This document shows positions 3,547 through 9,630 of a stretch of DNA of 64,000 nucleotides, one piece after another. Under the pieces are notes generated by a model that was not told where the DNA came from, made no database searches, and worked only from the letters and a program-made list of their open reading frames with translations. Position 1 is the stretch's first letter. Each line of letters opens with the position of its first letter. The translations under genes were made by a program, and so were the position numbers. The DNA comes from Oscillospiraceae bacterium (GTDB lineage: Bacteria; Bacillota; Clostridia; Oscillospirales; Oscillospiraceae): positions 62,001-126,000 of the forward strand of contig JAAWHG010000003.1 of assembly GCA_022795735.1 (NCBI GenBank). Direction: 5' to 3'.

Positions 3547-3630
3547 GCCCCCCTAACGCGCAGCAAGCCGCCGGCTCGAAAGGCCTGTTTTTATACAATT
3601 TTAACAAAATAAAATTTTTTTGGAAAAAAG

Positions 3631-3661
3631 TGTCCAAAATTGCATCTCTGAAACGTATTAA
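3631..3661 (+). promoter_or_regulatory. Probable ECF-sigma dependent promoter 1 (autoregulation)
   Basis: TGTCCAAAATTG (3631-3642), 11 nt, CGTATTAA (3654-3661). The same arrangement with identical spacing recurs at 4973-5003 (TGTCCAATATTG, 11 nt, CGTATTAA) and not elsewhere that I noticed. The CGTA in the -10 position is typical of ECF promoters. Both copies lie shortly before a start within this locus, so the sigma factor encoded here is the obvious candidate reader (inference). Confidence 0.6.
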
Positions 3662-3690
3662 CTATTGAGGAGAAAAGGAGCAAATAAAAG

Positions 3691-3774
3691 ATGGGTAAAA
3701 AGCTGACTTTACAATTTTCGCAGTGGCGCACCGGTCCCCCAGCCTTCCGCGGGAGGTGCAATCCGTTTGATTAA
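3691..3774 (+). CDS. 27-codon leader peptide overlapping the sigma-factor start
   Basis: ATG at 3691 follows a good ribosome binding site (AGGAGAAAAGGAG, 3668-3680) and opens a frame that ends with TAA at 3772-3774. It overlaps the TTG start of the sigma gene (3767) by 8 bases. The peptide begins MGKKLTLQFSQW and ends GRCNPFD, and has no similarity I recognise. Its codons run through the hairpin that contains the sigma ribosome binding site (3728-3759), so ribosomes translating the leader would open that hairpin. A role in translational coupling or attenuation is inferred. Conservation of the region in the copy at 6962 supports function, although the copy has lost this ATG. Confidence 0.5.
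   Translation: MGKKLTLQFSQWRTGPPAFRGRCNPFD
3728..3759 (+). promoter_or_regulatory. RBS-sequestering hairpin before the sigma gene
   Basis: GCACC (3728-3732) can pair with GGTGC (3755-3759), and TCCC (3735-3738) with GGGA (3751-3754). This places the ribosome binding site GGGAGG (3751-3756) in the stem. The TTG start follows 10 bases later. The same hairpin is kept in the duplicate at 6983-7014, where the only change inside the element (G to A) falls in the loop. Confidence 0.5.
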
Positions 3775-4291
3775 ATACTTACAGAAGGTAAAACCAAAGA
3801 GACAAAAGTACAAGTTTGAAAAAATCTATTCGGAATATGGTGAAATGATGTATAATATTGCCTTTACTCTGTTACGGCATGAGCAGGATGCCCAGGACGC
3901 GGTGCAGCAGGCGTTTATGAGCATTGCGGAAAATATAGCGGACATTGACGAGCCGGGGCCGAGAACAAAAGGCTACGTCGCTGTCATAGCCGAAAACAAG
4001 GCCATTGATTTACTCCGCAGGAGAAACCGGCAGCCAGTCCTTCTTGCCGACGAGGATTTTCCCGGGATTGAAATTGAGTACGACGGAGACAATTTCCTGA
4101 CCTCCTGCATCAACAATCTGCCCGCGCTGCAACGCCAGGTCATCTGGCTGAAATATGTGTATGGCTGCAATCTCCGGGAAATTGCGGACAGGCTGAATAT
4201 GACCTATGGGAGCGTGTGTAAACTGCATCAGCGCGCCAAAGCAAAATTGAAGGAACTTTGTATTCAGGAGGGTTACCAATTTTATGACTGA
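3767..4291 (+). CDS. ECF-type RNA polymerase sigma factor
   Basis: 174 residues with the two-domain layout of ECF sigma factors. Region 2 lies at about 18-85 (EMMYNIAFTLLRHEQDAQDAVQQAF) and region 4 at about 110-165 (LPALQRQVIWLKYVYG then a helix-turn-helix LREIADRLNMTYGSVCKLHQRAKAKL). It would direct RNA polymerase to a small regulon and is probably held by the membrane protein encoded next, which overlaps its 3' end by 8 bases. The TTG start is supported by GGGAGG at the right distance; no in-frame ATG gives full region 2. It is preceded by a leader ORF, a hairpin and a putative autoregulated promoter. The segment is AT-richer than the flanking housekeeping genes, suggesting transfer (inference). 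Confidence 0.9.
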   Translation: MIKYLQKVKPKRQKYKFEKIYSEYGEMMYNIAFTLLRHEQDAQDAVQQAFMSIAENIADIDEPGPRTKGYVAVIAENKAIDLLRRRNRQPVLLADEDFPGIEIEYDGDNFLTSCINNLPALQRQVIWLKYVYGCNLREIADRLNMTYGSVCKLHQRAKAKLKELCIQEGYQFYD

Positions 4292-4955
4292 TGAAATGCT
4301 GCGGCAGGCCGCCAAGGAATCCTTTACATTTTATATGGAAACTGTCACGCGGAACGGCAACCCGGCCCATACGTTTCATCCTTCCCCCGCGTTCGAGCAA
4401 AAAATCGGGAGGCTGGCCCACCGGGCCAGCCGTCCTACTCATTACAAGCTTTTACAGAGGGTGGCCTCCGTCGCCTTGGCCGCAGTGCTGGCCGGCGGCG
4501 CATGGCTGGCCGTGAGCAAAGACGCACGGGCGGAATTTGTCGCCTGGGCCCGGCAAATGTTCGAGAATAGCGTGGTTTACGACTTCTATGGCACCTATCA
4601 CGAGGAATCGCTGCCGGAATATGTGATAGCCCCCCTACCGGATGGATTTGTCGAGTCTGATGTAATCGGCGGTGACACAATGTACATACGGGTTTATGAA
4701 AATGACAAGGATATCGTTATATTTTCCTATATGATAATGTCAGAAGATTCTACCATGAGTCTTTTTTCAGACGGTCATAACTATGAAAGTGTACAGGTTG
4801 GCCCTTATTCCGGAGATTTTTATGAAATGACCAACTCAGAAGAAACAAATGAATTAATCTGGTTTGACACTGAAAATAACATCGTCTTTCAAATTTCAGC
4901 GTTCATGAACAAGGACGCTATGCTTGCCTTAGCTGAATGCGTAGAAAAAAAATAA
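4284..4955 (+). CDS. DUF4367-like membrane protein, probable anti-sigma factor
   Basis: 223 residues. The N-terminal 55 or so are cytosolic, one membrane helix lies at about 57-77 (VASVALAAVLAGGAWLAV), and the outer part ends in a region with DUF4367 features (LPDGFVESDV, IWFDTENNIVFQISAFMNKDAMLALAE). This layout is usual for proteins encoded directly after clostridial ECF sigma factors, so an anti-sigma or regulatory role is inferred. No zinc anti-sigma motif (HxxxCxxC) is present, so it is not a classical ZAS protein. The start overlaps the sigma stop by 8 bases, indicating coupling. Confidence 0.75.
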   Translation: MTDEMLRQAAKESFTFYMETVTRNGNPAHTFHPSPAFEQKIGRLAHRASRPTHYKLLQRVASVALAAVLAGGAWLAVSKDARAEFVAWARQMFENSVVYDFYGTYHEESLPEYVIAPLPDGFVESDVIGGDTMYIRVYENDKDIVIFSYMIMSEDSTMSLFSDGHNYESVQVGPYSGDFYEMTNSEETNELIWFDTENNIVFQISAFMNKDAMLALAECVEKK

Positions 4956-4972
4956 AATATTTTGAAAGAAGA

Positions 4973-5003
4973 TGTCCAATATTGGTATCCTGATTCGTAT
5001 TAA
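4973..5003 (+). promoter_or_regulatory. Probable ECF-sigma dependent promoter 2
   Basis: TGTCCAATATTG, 11 nt, CGTATTAA, which is the same motif and spacing as at 3631-3661. It lies 32 bases before the next gene, whose ribosome binding site is AGAAAGGAGGTGA at 5018-5030. It suggests that the small exported protein that follows is a target of the sigma factor encoded upstream. Confidence 0.6.
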
Positions 5004-5501: not shown

Positions 5502-5948
5502 GTGGTAGCCATTTTCTCTTGTGTATTTGTTCATAGCGGTGTTAAAGCGGTAAATAGGACTAACAATATAATAAAGCCGCTCATATCTGAAAATAGCGAA
5601 CATGATATACAGGAGCATGACGCCGAATGGTACATAGAAATGGCGACACAAATAGATGCTCAGTATTTGCGCTGTGAAGAAGACATTCAATATTATGCGT
5701 ATCTTGACTACAACAGCGCATTAGAGCAAATAAAACCTGTCATTCTTCAAGCACGAGAAAAAATTATTTATCGTCAGTCATGGGCCGCAGATGGAACAAA
5801 TATATACATTCTCGATGAAAACGGGCATGTGATGAAAGACATACCCAATTTTTCAGACCTCTTTCCGGCGGACTGGAATGAACCTATTATTCCTAAACCA
5901 TTTCGAGAAGTTAACCTGGACCACTATGCAGCGCCCTCGACTGAATAG
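5502..5948 (+). CDS. Exported or membrane-anchored protein, paralogue of the next gene
   Basis: Translation from GTG 5502 gives 148 residues, but no ribosome binding site precedes that codon. The frame is open back to 5463, and a good site (GAGGTG, 5455-5460) stands 8 bases before ATA at 5469. An AUA start, or an ATG lost by mutation, would give a complete N-terminal membrane or signal segment (LPTVVAIFSCVFVHSGV). The C-terminal half (about 80-140) is clearly related to the next protein: both have an AR-x-x-II motif, S-W-x-ADG, YIL-x-E-x-G and PNFSD-x-FP-x-DW. Family and function are unknown. The pair looks like a tandem duplication. Confidence 0.6.
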   Translation: MVAIFSCVFVHSGVKAVNRTNNIIKPLISENSEHDIQEHDAEWYIEMATQIDAQYLRCEEDIQYYAYLDYNSALEQIKPVILQAREKIIYRQSWAADGTNIYILDENGHVMKDIPNFSDLFPADWNEPIIPKPFREVNLDHYAAPSTE

Positions 5949-5964
5949 ATGAAAGGAGTACATA

Positions 5965-6693
5965 ATGAAAAAGATTTCTGTTGCATTATTAGTTCTTTTA
6001 TTGGTTACAACTATGAGCATTCCTGCGGTAGCTATCGACCTTAGCGAGCCGACTTCTGCTACAAGCAGAGAAAGCGAAATTGCATATATGAAAATTGATG
6101 AGACAACTCCCGAGGCCGAGGAGGAGCAAATACTTGCAGCTCGCAATGAAATTATTTTTAGCACATCCTGGGTAGCCGACGGAATGAAGTGTTATATCTT
6201 AAATGAAGATGGAAACATTGAGAAGGTTATACCGAATTTTTCCGACGTTTTCCCTGAAGATTGGGAATTACCAGATCTGGAAGACCAAGAAGAAGCTTTA
6301 AAGAGCCTCGTTCTGTGGCAATCAGAAGCAATGCCATTGTCTGAGGACATGCAGCCTTTTTATAATGATTCCGTATGGCTGAGCAAGCCATCTGGACAGT
6401 ATAACACATCACCTTTTTGTAGTTTCTCAACTACAAATAATGTTGGAGGGACATATAGAGGGCATATAGAAAAGGTGTACACAAATGGATATAATGCCAA
6501 TTCAGACGCAACCTATAATGTGGGCTACTCCAATGTGGACACCGGAAAATCACTTGGGTTTACTGAGCGCATACCTGAAGGCTTGCCTTGTATATGTGAG
6601 CCACCATCGGGTATAACATTGGGTGTCAGAGCCAGCACATATACTGATCCCGGTTTGTGGACGATGAAGGTCGCTGGTACGTATGTATACTAA
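5965..6693 (+). CDS. Secreted protein with duplicated unknown domain
   Basis: 242 residues, starting at an ATG with a good AAAGGAG site. The signal peptide is about residues 1-23 (KKISVALLVLLLVTTMSIPAVA). Residues about 45-100 carry the domain shared with the preceding gene (ARNEIIF, SWVADG, YILNEDG, IPNFSDVFPEDW). The C-terminal part (about 130-242) is rich in Tyr, Asn, Ser and Thr and looks like a beta-structured extracellular domain with three cysteines. I recognise no family. It is the last gene before a terminator, so 5036-6693 could be one transcript driven from the ECF-like promoter at 4973. Confidence 0.7.
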   Translation: MKKISVALLVLLLVTTMSIPAVAIDLSEPTSATSRESEIAYMKIDETTPEAEEEQILAARNEIIFSTSWVADGMKCYILNEDGNIEKVIPNFSDVFPEDWELPDLEDQEEALKSLVLWQSEAMPLSEDMQPFYNDSVWLSKPSGQYNTSPFCSFSTTNNVGGTYRGHIEKVYTNGYNANSDATYNVGYSNVDTGKSLGFTERIPEGLPCICEPPSGITLGVRASTYTDPGLWTMKVAGTYVY

Positions 6694-7866: not shown

Positions 7867-8274
7867 ATGTATCCTAATAATTACGCATTTCCGGCCCTCT
7901 TTTACTATGACGATGATGGAATTTCTATTGAATTTCCCGACCTCCCCGGTTGTCTGCCCTGCGCGCAAACCTCGGAAGAAGCATTTCATAACGCCAAAGA
8001 GGCCCTTGGCCTGCACTTGTTCGGCATGGAGCAGGATGGCGACGCCATCCCCGCCCCTACGCCAGTGAAAAATTTACAGCCTTCCGCAGGAGCGGCCGTG
8101 GCTATGGTTGAAGTATTTATGCCCGCCGTTCGCGACCGGATCAATAACAAGGTCGTCAAAAAAACATTAACCCTCCCTGCCTGGTTGAATTGGGAAGCGG
8201 AGGCCGCTAATGTAAATTTCTCCCTCATTTTACAAGACGGATTAAAACGCTATCTGGGAAAAACCGCAGAATAG
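7867..8274 (+). CDS. hicB: HicB-family antitoxin, apparently solitary
   Basis: 135 residues. The N-terminal HicB fold (YPNNYAFPALFYYDDDGISIEFPDLPGC then SEEAFHNAKEALGLHL) is typical of the partially degraded RNase-H-like antitoxins. The C-terminal part (KKTLTLPAWLNWEAEAANVNFSLILQDGLKRYL) looks like a ribbon-helix-helix DNA-binding segment. No HicA toxin (about 60-80 residues with GSHH) is found on either side. The 173-base gap upstream holds only a 27-codon frame at 7752-7835 with a weak site that does not resemble HicA. An orphan antitoxin or transcriptional regulator is the likely reading. Confidence 0.85.
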   Translation: MYPNNYAFPALFYYDDDGISIEFPDLPGCLPCAQTSEEAFHNAKEALGLHLFGMEQDGDAIPAPTPVKNLQPSAGAAVAMVEVFMPAVRDRINNKVVKKTLTLPAWLNWEAEAANVNFSLILQDGLKRYLGKTAE

Positions 8275-8421: not shown

Positions 8422-9630
8422 ATGCAGCAATCATGGAAACGAAAATTCTGGATTATTTCCATCGGGCAAATCGCTTCCCTGATCGGAAGCTCCGCCGTCC
8501 AGTTCGCGTTGATCTGGTGGATCGCCAGTGAAACGGGTTCCGCAATCATGATGGGCTTATCCGGATTGGTTGCCTTTCTGCCGGCTACGCTCCTGAGCCC
8601 GCTGGCGGGAATTGTGGCAGACCGGTACCACAGAAAATACATTTGCATTTTTGCAGACCTGTTTATCGGCGTAAGCGCGGCCATCTTCTCCGTCCTGCTG
8701 TGGCTGTTTGAAATGCCGGTGTGGACCGCCCTCATCATCCTGTTTTTCAGAAGCATCGGAAACGCCTTCCATCAGCCCGCCTTTCAAGCTATGATCCCAC
8801 AATTTGTCCCCGCCGAAGACCTGGTCAAAATCGGGGGCTGGAATCAATTGATTGCCTCCGGCTCCTTCCTGCTCGGCCCGGCAATCGGCGCGGCCCTGTA
8901 CGCCGCCTTTTCCCTGCCCGTTATTTTGCTCACCGACTTACTGGGGGCAATTATCGCAAGCGTCATGCTTGCCGCCGTACAGATCGCCCCCATGCAGCGG
9001 GTCACGCGGGAAAGCCAAAACACGCGGAAGGAATTAAAAGAGGGAATCGAAGTTTTCCGGGCCGACAAAGCGCTTACCCTGCTCATCGTCGTCGAAACAC
9101 TGTGCATGATTTTCTACATGCCCCTATCGTCATTTTATCCCCTGATGACCAGCGACTATTTCAACGCCACGGCATGGCACGGCAGCGTAGTCGAAATTCT
9201 GTATGCCGCCGGCATGATGGTCGCGGCGTTTCTATTCAGCAGCGTCATCAAGGTCAAGCAGCATCTGCTGTTTTCATACATTGGAATGCTGGGGGTCGGC
9301 ATCACCTCCGCAATCGGCGGTCTGCTGCCGCCGGACATGTGGGCCTGGCTCATCTTTGCCCTCGCCTGCGGCGTCATGGGAGCCTTTGGAAATGTCCACA
9401 GCATTCCGCTGATCGCATACATGCAGACCACCATTCCCGCCGAAAAAATGGGGCGGGCCTTTTCCCTCATTGCGCTGGCCGCGTCGCTTTCCATGCCGGT
9501 CGGACTTCTGATCGCCTCCCCGGTTGCTGAAACGGTCGGCGTCAACGTCTGGTTTTTGCTGTCTGGAGTCGGGACGGTTTTAATCACAGCCACCGGCCTT
9601 TTCCTGCATCAAAGAATGCAGCGGCAATAA
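8422..9630 (+). CDS. MFS transporter, drug/metabolite exporter type
   Basis: 402 residues with about 12 hydrophobic segments, the usual size of MFS_3/enterobactin-exporter-like carriers. The N-terminal signature GQIASLIGSSAVQFALIWW (in parts) and the loop motif PLAGIVADRYHRKY (motif A, G-x-x-aDRyxRk) are clear. Such proteins export drugs or siderophores by proton antiport. The substrate cannot be told here. The start follows AGGAGGG at 9 bases spacing. A TATACT at 8379-8384 may be its -10 box, with a poor -35. It is convergent with the next gene, 10 bases apart, with no obvious terminator between. Confidence 0.9.
   Translation: MQQSWKRKFWIISIGQIASLIGSSAVQFALIWWIASETGSAIMMGLSGLVAFLPATLLSPLAGIVADRYHRKYICIFADLFIGVSAAIFSVLLWLFEMPVWTALIILFFRSIGNAFHQPAFQAMIPQFVPAEDLVKIGGWNQLIASGSFLLGPAIGAALYAAFSLPVILLTDLLGAIIASVMLAAVQIAPMQRVTRESQNTRKELKEGIEVFRADKALTLLIVVETLCMIFYMPLSSFYPLMTSDYFNATAWHGSVVEILYAAGMMVAAFLFSSVIKVKQHLLFSYIGMLGVGITSAIGGLLPPDMWAWLIFALACGVMGAFGNVHSIPLIAYMQTTIPAEKMGRAFSLIALAASLSMPVGLLIASPVAETVGVNVWFLLSGVGTVLITATGLFLHQRMQRQ

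Follow-up and report, generated by a model that had tools for sequence, protein, structure and literature searches.

Predicted promoters of a self-regulated ECF sigma factor in an Oscillospiraceae genome, and a candidate cognate promoter within the sigma genes of its relatives

The analysis of a 64,000-nucleotide stretch of DNA from an Oscillospiraceae bacterium (hereafter the window) suggests that two copies of a bipartite element function as promoters of the ECF sigma factor encoded between them, and this account, taken as a whole with the feedback wiring described below, is very likely to be correct. The promoter reading draws on the motif itself, on how uniquely it is placed within the genome and on the fact that relatives have conserved it at equivalent locations, all of which is evidence at the level of sequence. 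It also appears rather likely that a family of these ECF sigma genes in the order Oscillospirales carries the cognate promoter within its region-2 codons, which encode a part of the protein involved in promoter recognition. The protein and DNA codes would there be locked together such that a change in the -35 element (TGTCC to TGTCA or TGTAG) is at the same time a change of residue (Pro to His or Ser), and is mirrored by the promoter of the secreted-protein gene; lineages of the window type would then have moved the promoter upstream, with feedback giving way to autoactivation.

The predicted promoter pair and its genomic context

Searches of the window with TGTCCAAWATTG-N11-CGTATTAA recovered two exact copies, both on the forward strand and at the positions claimed in the initial annotation (Table 1), in each of which 18 nt separate TGTCC from CGTA. 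When up to 3 mismatches were allowed, the 64-kb window had 2 matches versus 0.01 expected from 100 dinucleotide shuffles. The two halves and fixed spacing described in that annotation hold, and so does its observation that the copies are otherwise dissimilar, both between and around the boxes; the motif as written there is one base short. The correct form is TGTCCAA-A/T-ATTG-N11-CGTATTAA, and a pattern search with the earlier TGTCCA-N-ATTG-N11-CGTATTAA found 0 matches. The downstream site lies 18 nt after the stop codon of the putative anti-sigma gene and 33 nt ahead of the secreted-protein gene.

Table 1. Predicted promoter elements and genes of the sigma factor locus, in window coordinates
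Feature	Coordinates	Strand	Basis and remarks
A/T-rich, UP-element-like tract upstream of the predicted sigma-gene promoter	3601..3630	+	Sequence; common to site 2, the third genomic site and 26 extragenic sites of relatives
Sigma-gene promoter (predicted; site 1)	3631..3661	+	-35 TGTCCAA 3631-3637; -10 CGTATTAA 3654-3661; exact match
Leader ORF, 27 codons, MGKKLTLQFSQWRTGPPAFRGRCNPFD	3691..3774	+	Own ribosome-binding site; overlaps the sigma start
ECF sigma factor, 174 aa, TTG start	3767..4291	+	Pfam; TIGR02937; N-terminus alignable with 16 relatives
Place of the relatives' intragenic copy, decayed here (GGGCCGAGAACAAAAGGCTACGTCGCTGTC)	3956..3988	+	Codon alignment; relatives NGTCCAAAAAC...TCGTTACT
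Putative membrane anti-sigma factor, DUF4367, 223 aa	4284..4955	+	PF14285 2.9e-10; 8-nt overlap with the sigma gene
Secreted-protein-gene promoter (predicted; site 2)	4973..5003	+	-35 TGTCCAA 4973-4979; -10 CGTATTAA 4996-5003; exact match
Small secreted all-beta (Ig-like) protein, 114 aa	5036..5380	+	Signal peptide; conserved target

Both of the genes that the initial annotation placed behind these sites, the sigma gene and the first secreted-protein gene, proved to be real ORFs with good ribosome-binding sites. The sigma protein matches Sigma70_r2 (residues 20-88, 2.8e-13) and Sigma70_r4_2 (residues 111-161, 1.1e-13) in Pfam as well as TIGR02937 (4e-23); it thus contains Sigma-70 regions 2 and 4 only, and its 174 aa fall within the range of about 170-200 aa of the ECF (group 4) factors. 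The adjoining and overlapping gene, whose arrangement is kept in relatives, codes for a protein with a DUF4367 domain that is present in 10 of the 10 aligned relatives. Its structural model has N-terminal helices, a long hydrophobic helix (51-77) and a C-terminal beta domain, and its membrane topology, with a cytosolic N-terminus, is inferred. This gene order and architecture, which is that of sigma/anti-sigma operons, marks the DUF4367 protein as a putative anti-sigma factor. Homologues of the small secreted protein (113-136 aa) occupy the same position in 10 relatives, and its model (pLDDT 84) has five long strands.

Several other features of the region are recorded here as side observations. 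The leader ORF lies between the predicted promoter and the TTG start of the sigma gene, making translational coupling possible. Two exported proteins that lack a Pfam match (5502-5948 and 5965-6693) share a W.ADG...NEDG/DENG...IPNFSD.FP.DW block and might represent further members of the secreted-protein operon. Farther downstream are a gene for a HicB-like antitoxin (7867-8274; PF15919, 8.5e-14) and one for an MFS pump close to the Mef macrolide efflux proteins (8422-9630; NCBIfam Mef(A), E 2.4e-90, with 303 bits falling below the cutoff of 675). An ORF similar in appearance to the HicB-like gene lies near the third promoter site described below (L036:10772-11179).

The genome-wide check proposed by the initial annotation was run over the 2.40-Mb genome. 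With up to 3 mismatches it returned the two window sites and one more, the reversed pattern giving 0 matches. The additional site, TGTCCAATTTTG-N11-CGTATATA (C13:54619-54649, reverse strand), has 3 mismatches to the strict pattern and lies 7.4 kb before the window, ~110 nt ahead of the start codon (ATG) of a gene whose exported product weakly matches the Cu_amine_oxidN1 type. The sole further occurrence of the motif thus again precedes an exported-protein gene; since an estimated ~0.3 matches with 3 mismatches are expected by chance per 2.4 Mb, the weight of the third site comes from its context. In all three genomic sites an A/T-rich tract with a TTTTGAAAAA-like end, absent from the initial annotation, stands directly 5' of TGTCCA. 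The predicted regulon is consequently small, comprising 3 sites on one contig within 13 kb. Two further weak matches in a relaxed scan of the same genome (contigs C21 and C60; 3 mismatches, poor -35 or -10) were rejected.

Relatives were gathered from 400 family genomes, 394 order genomes and GTDB contigs, yielding about 70 non-redundant related sigma loci, with Flavonifractor, Evtepia, Oscillibacter, Pseudoflavonifractor and Subdoligranulum among the named representatives. The element TGTCC-N18/19-CGTW precedes the sigma gene in L020, L054, L056, L060, L180, L182 and L191, and is commoner just behind the anti-sigma gene, 4-60 nt (mostly 9-22) past its stop codon, where the next gene usually codes for a small secreted protein related to that of the window. 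Across 26 extragenic sites the spacing is N18 in 21 and N19 in 5, and the upstream sequence is A-rich, with the consensus aaaaa.aAAAaa.ttt. The consensus TGTCCAAAA-N13-TCGTTA was found 17 times in the 400 family genomes, and its reversed control gave 0 matches. Sigma genes contain 8 of the 17, another 3 follow anti-sigma genes, 2 precede exported-protein genes, 1 precedes an anti-sigma-like gene, and 3 are unassigned. The match before the anti-sigma-like gene (L164, site at 1501) stands directly ahead of a short ORF with no adjoining sigma gene in view, possibly an orphan or broken anti-sigma gene under the same type of promoter. In about half of the sigma relatives neither the extragenic nor the intragenic form of the promoter was detected.

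A single bipartite element with fixed spacing, placed before the sigma gene as well as before its targets and recurring in dozens of related loci at 18-19 nt, is the arrangement of an autoregulated ECF promoter, and supports the earlier reading of the motif as the sigma factor's own promoter. We hold with high confidence that the upstream and downstream sites of the window are promoters used by this sigma factor; the predicted self-regulated ECF pair is ordinary in itself. It is highly improbable that the motif is instead the operator of another regulator, such as a dimeric repressor or activator, with no sigma promoter involved. Site 2 is indeed palindromic around CCAATATTGG, and two sites flanking a regulatory gene pair would also be compatible with a repressor, but the palindrome is missing from sites 1 and 3, and a dimeric operator is rejected because of this restriction to site 2. 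Relatives likewise lack the palindrome, reading TGTCCAAAATC, TGTCCCxx, TGTCACAA or TGTAGT; the placement of CGTW at 18-19 nt together with an A-rich tract on the 5' side is promoter geometry, and the -35 variants of the element track the sigma lineage, which also argues against an operator. Chance or local duplication without function, which the presence of only three sites in the genome might be taken to favor, can be practically dismissed given the dissimilarity around the boxes, the lack of any occurrence in shuffled sequences, the 17 to 0 ratio over the reversed control and the conservation in relatives.

A candidate promoter inside the sigma genes of relatives

The consensus matches inside sigma genes, which came as a surprise, all fall on codons 64-72 (window numbering) of region 2, reading NGT CCA AAA ACN ... 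NNC GTT, and lie ~320 nt ahead of the anti-sigma start. These relatives thus possess, at the sequence level, a sigma-type promoter within the sigma gene. Internal sites are present in 33 of the 37 loci that have a downstream site; among the order-level loci outside the first set they occur in 8 of 22, each of which also has an extragenic site, and base 6 of the -35 agrees between the two in only 6 of these 8. We consider it probable that the internal site is a real sigma-dependent promoter, and, at a lower level of confidence, favor feedback through the anti-sigma gene as its job.

The same site might instead act as a sigma-dependent pause or decoy, or as the source of a short sigma fragment, and not as a promoter for the anti-sigma gene. 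Promoter-like intragenic sequences can re-bind sigma and thereby pause the polymerase (PMC10771440), and the distance to the anti-sigma start would be compatible with such roles. Nevertheless, this alternative appears unlikely given that the -35 and -10 elements are both kept, along with the A-rich stretch and the exact spacing of a full promoter, and that in 43 of 45 loci the final codons of the sigma gene include a separate ribosome-binding site for the anti-sigma gene. For the short fragment in particular, no conserved start codon in the sigma frame was found after the site in the sequences read.

It is still less likely that the internal copy arose as a by-product of codon habits and of the conserved protein sequence Cys-Pro-Lys-Thr...Val-Val, although it does sit in the conserved region 2, and intragenic sigma sites are often inactive in E. 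coli, where RNA effects were detectable for 5 of 30 FliA sites (PMC4183435). When synonymous codons were shuffled within genes, 2.8 internal copies were expected, with a maximum of 8 in 1000 shuffles, as against the 27 present in the 51 sigma genes. Synonymous conservation peaks at codons 64-77 with an excess of 0.133, the remainder of the gene having a median of 0.033 and a maximum of 0.082. The first residue of the site is only ever Cys, Arg, Gly or Ser, which are precisely the four residues that NGT codons can specify, and GTCC is kept; likewise, the codon preceding Val ends in C across five different amino acids.

A further argument against the by-product reading is that the internal -35 covaries with that of a physically separate promoter, residue-changing variants included. 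In the first set, the Pro wobble base that follows TGTCC is identical to its counterpart in the locus's own upstream or downstream site in 19 of 19 loci, and for the Val wobble base at the end of CGTW this holds in 18 of 19. For -35 bases 4-6, 92 of 99 cells agree between the internal site and a downstream site picked blind (permutation mean 59, maximum 76). The internal variants TGTCAC and TGTAG change the encoded Pro to His or Ser, and it was predicted beforehand that a locus with either the Cys-His or the Cys-Ser variant would carry the matching variant in its downstream promoter; this was the case in 6 of 6, these being the variant loci in which both sites were found (L067, L187, L190, L193, L194 and L195). 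The wobble base 6 of the -35 switches state only 3 times on the tree, and hence the independent events are few, with 2-3 independent pairs and a sign test without power. The main weight for selection on the internal copy is accordingly placed on the conservation at saturated synonymous positions and on the TGTCA/TGTAG variants.

Proposed feedback wiring and private promoter codes

The corresponding codons 64-72 of the window sigma gene have decayed to GGGCCGAGAAC...TCGCTG and contain no sigma-type promoter. On the tree, the window sigma groups with internal-copy relatives in a supported clade (98/89). Conversely, the upstream promoter that is present in the window is missing in 25 of the 27 loci with an internal copy. 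With the internal copy lost and an upstream one in place, the wiring in the window should be mainly positive autoregulation, and its lineage has probably replaced anti-sigma feedback with an arrangement in which the sigma factor activates its entire operon.

In the mechanism that we propose, an envelope signal would cause the DUF4367 membrane protein, as the putative anti-sigma factor, to release the sigma factor. RNA polymerase carrying this sigma would then start at site 1, yielding more sigma and anti-sigma, at site 2, yielding the small secreted protein, and at the third site, yielding another exported protein. In most relatives, initiation at the internal promoter would produce transcripts that include only the end of the sigma gene but the whole anti-sigma gene, amounting to negative feedback.

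A second ECF sigma/DUF4367 pair lies about 6 kb from the first on the opposite strand (L036:16395-17870, reverse strand); on contig C13 this places it about 2-4 kb ahead of the window. Its sites, TGTCCAAAAAYRG-N8-GTACATATATWW with a -10 of CATATAT, number exactly two in the genome, one between its own sigma and anti-sigma genes and the other before a later gene. A third paralogue (C60) is associated with TGTCCGG...CGTTATATA. These private sites imply that TGTCC is common to the paralogues, with the following bases and the -10 being different.

Relationship to known systems and implications

Autoregulated ECF operons generally rely on a bipartite promoter from which the sigma factor has its own operon transcribed together with a few envelope genes, and the locus described here appears to follow the same self-promoter scheme. 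To our knowledge, neither the -35 TGTCC(A) nor the DUF4367 partner is that of the well-studied Bacillus ECF factors. Our literature searches found no paper linking DUF4367 to sigma/anti-sigma systems, and none on the ECF sigma factors of Oscillospiraceae. The best Foldseek matches of the DUF4367 model are RseB/MucB, sensors in other sigma/anti-sigma systems, although the similarity is weak (E 1.1e-3, TM 0.28) and the domain is here fused to a membrane anchor; this provides a weak hint that it might adopt a sensor fold.

The closest parallel to the internal copy is the ECF sigma/anti-sigma pair sigH-rshA of Corynebacterium glutamicum, in which PrshA, a SigH-dependent promoter located within the sigH coding region, transcribes the anti-sigma gene rshA alone, starting 62-66 nt before it (PMC3489674). 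The feedback logic proposed for the relatives is the same and is thus already known. The two systems differ in that PrshA is situated at the very end of sigH, whereas the relatives' site lies in the region-2 codons, and also in motif, in the type of anti-sigma factor and in phylum, the window itself being devoid of an internal copy. The coding-embedded, co-evolving promoter in region 2 therefore looks like a new variant of the internal anti-sigma promoter. A similar case is the E. coli regulator gene flhC, whose coding sequence contains a FliA promoter that drives downstream genes (motAB-cheAW); unlike the sigma genes described here, each of which would hold its own cognate promoter, flhC does not encode FliA. 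That most intragenic FliA sites have no RNA effect (PMC4183435) is the main caution regarding the internal promoter.

The proposed promoter code, TGTCC-N18/19-CGTW with private variants for each sigma paralogue, offers a testable scheme for the ECF factors of gut Oscillospiraceae, and connects each sigma with a conserved small secreted protein and with a putative anti-sigma whose domain has no known function. The relatives' internal copy would offer a clear example from nature of a DNA segment in which protein and promoter codes overlap, with sufficient variation to show a promoter shaping a protein, and the comparison with the window lineage suggests a simple route by which feedback may be rewired, namely the moving of one promoter.
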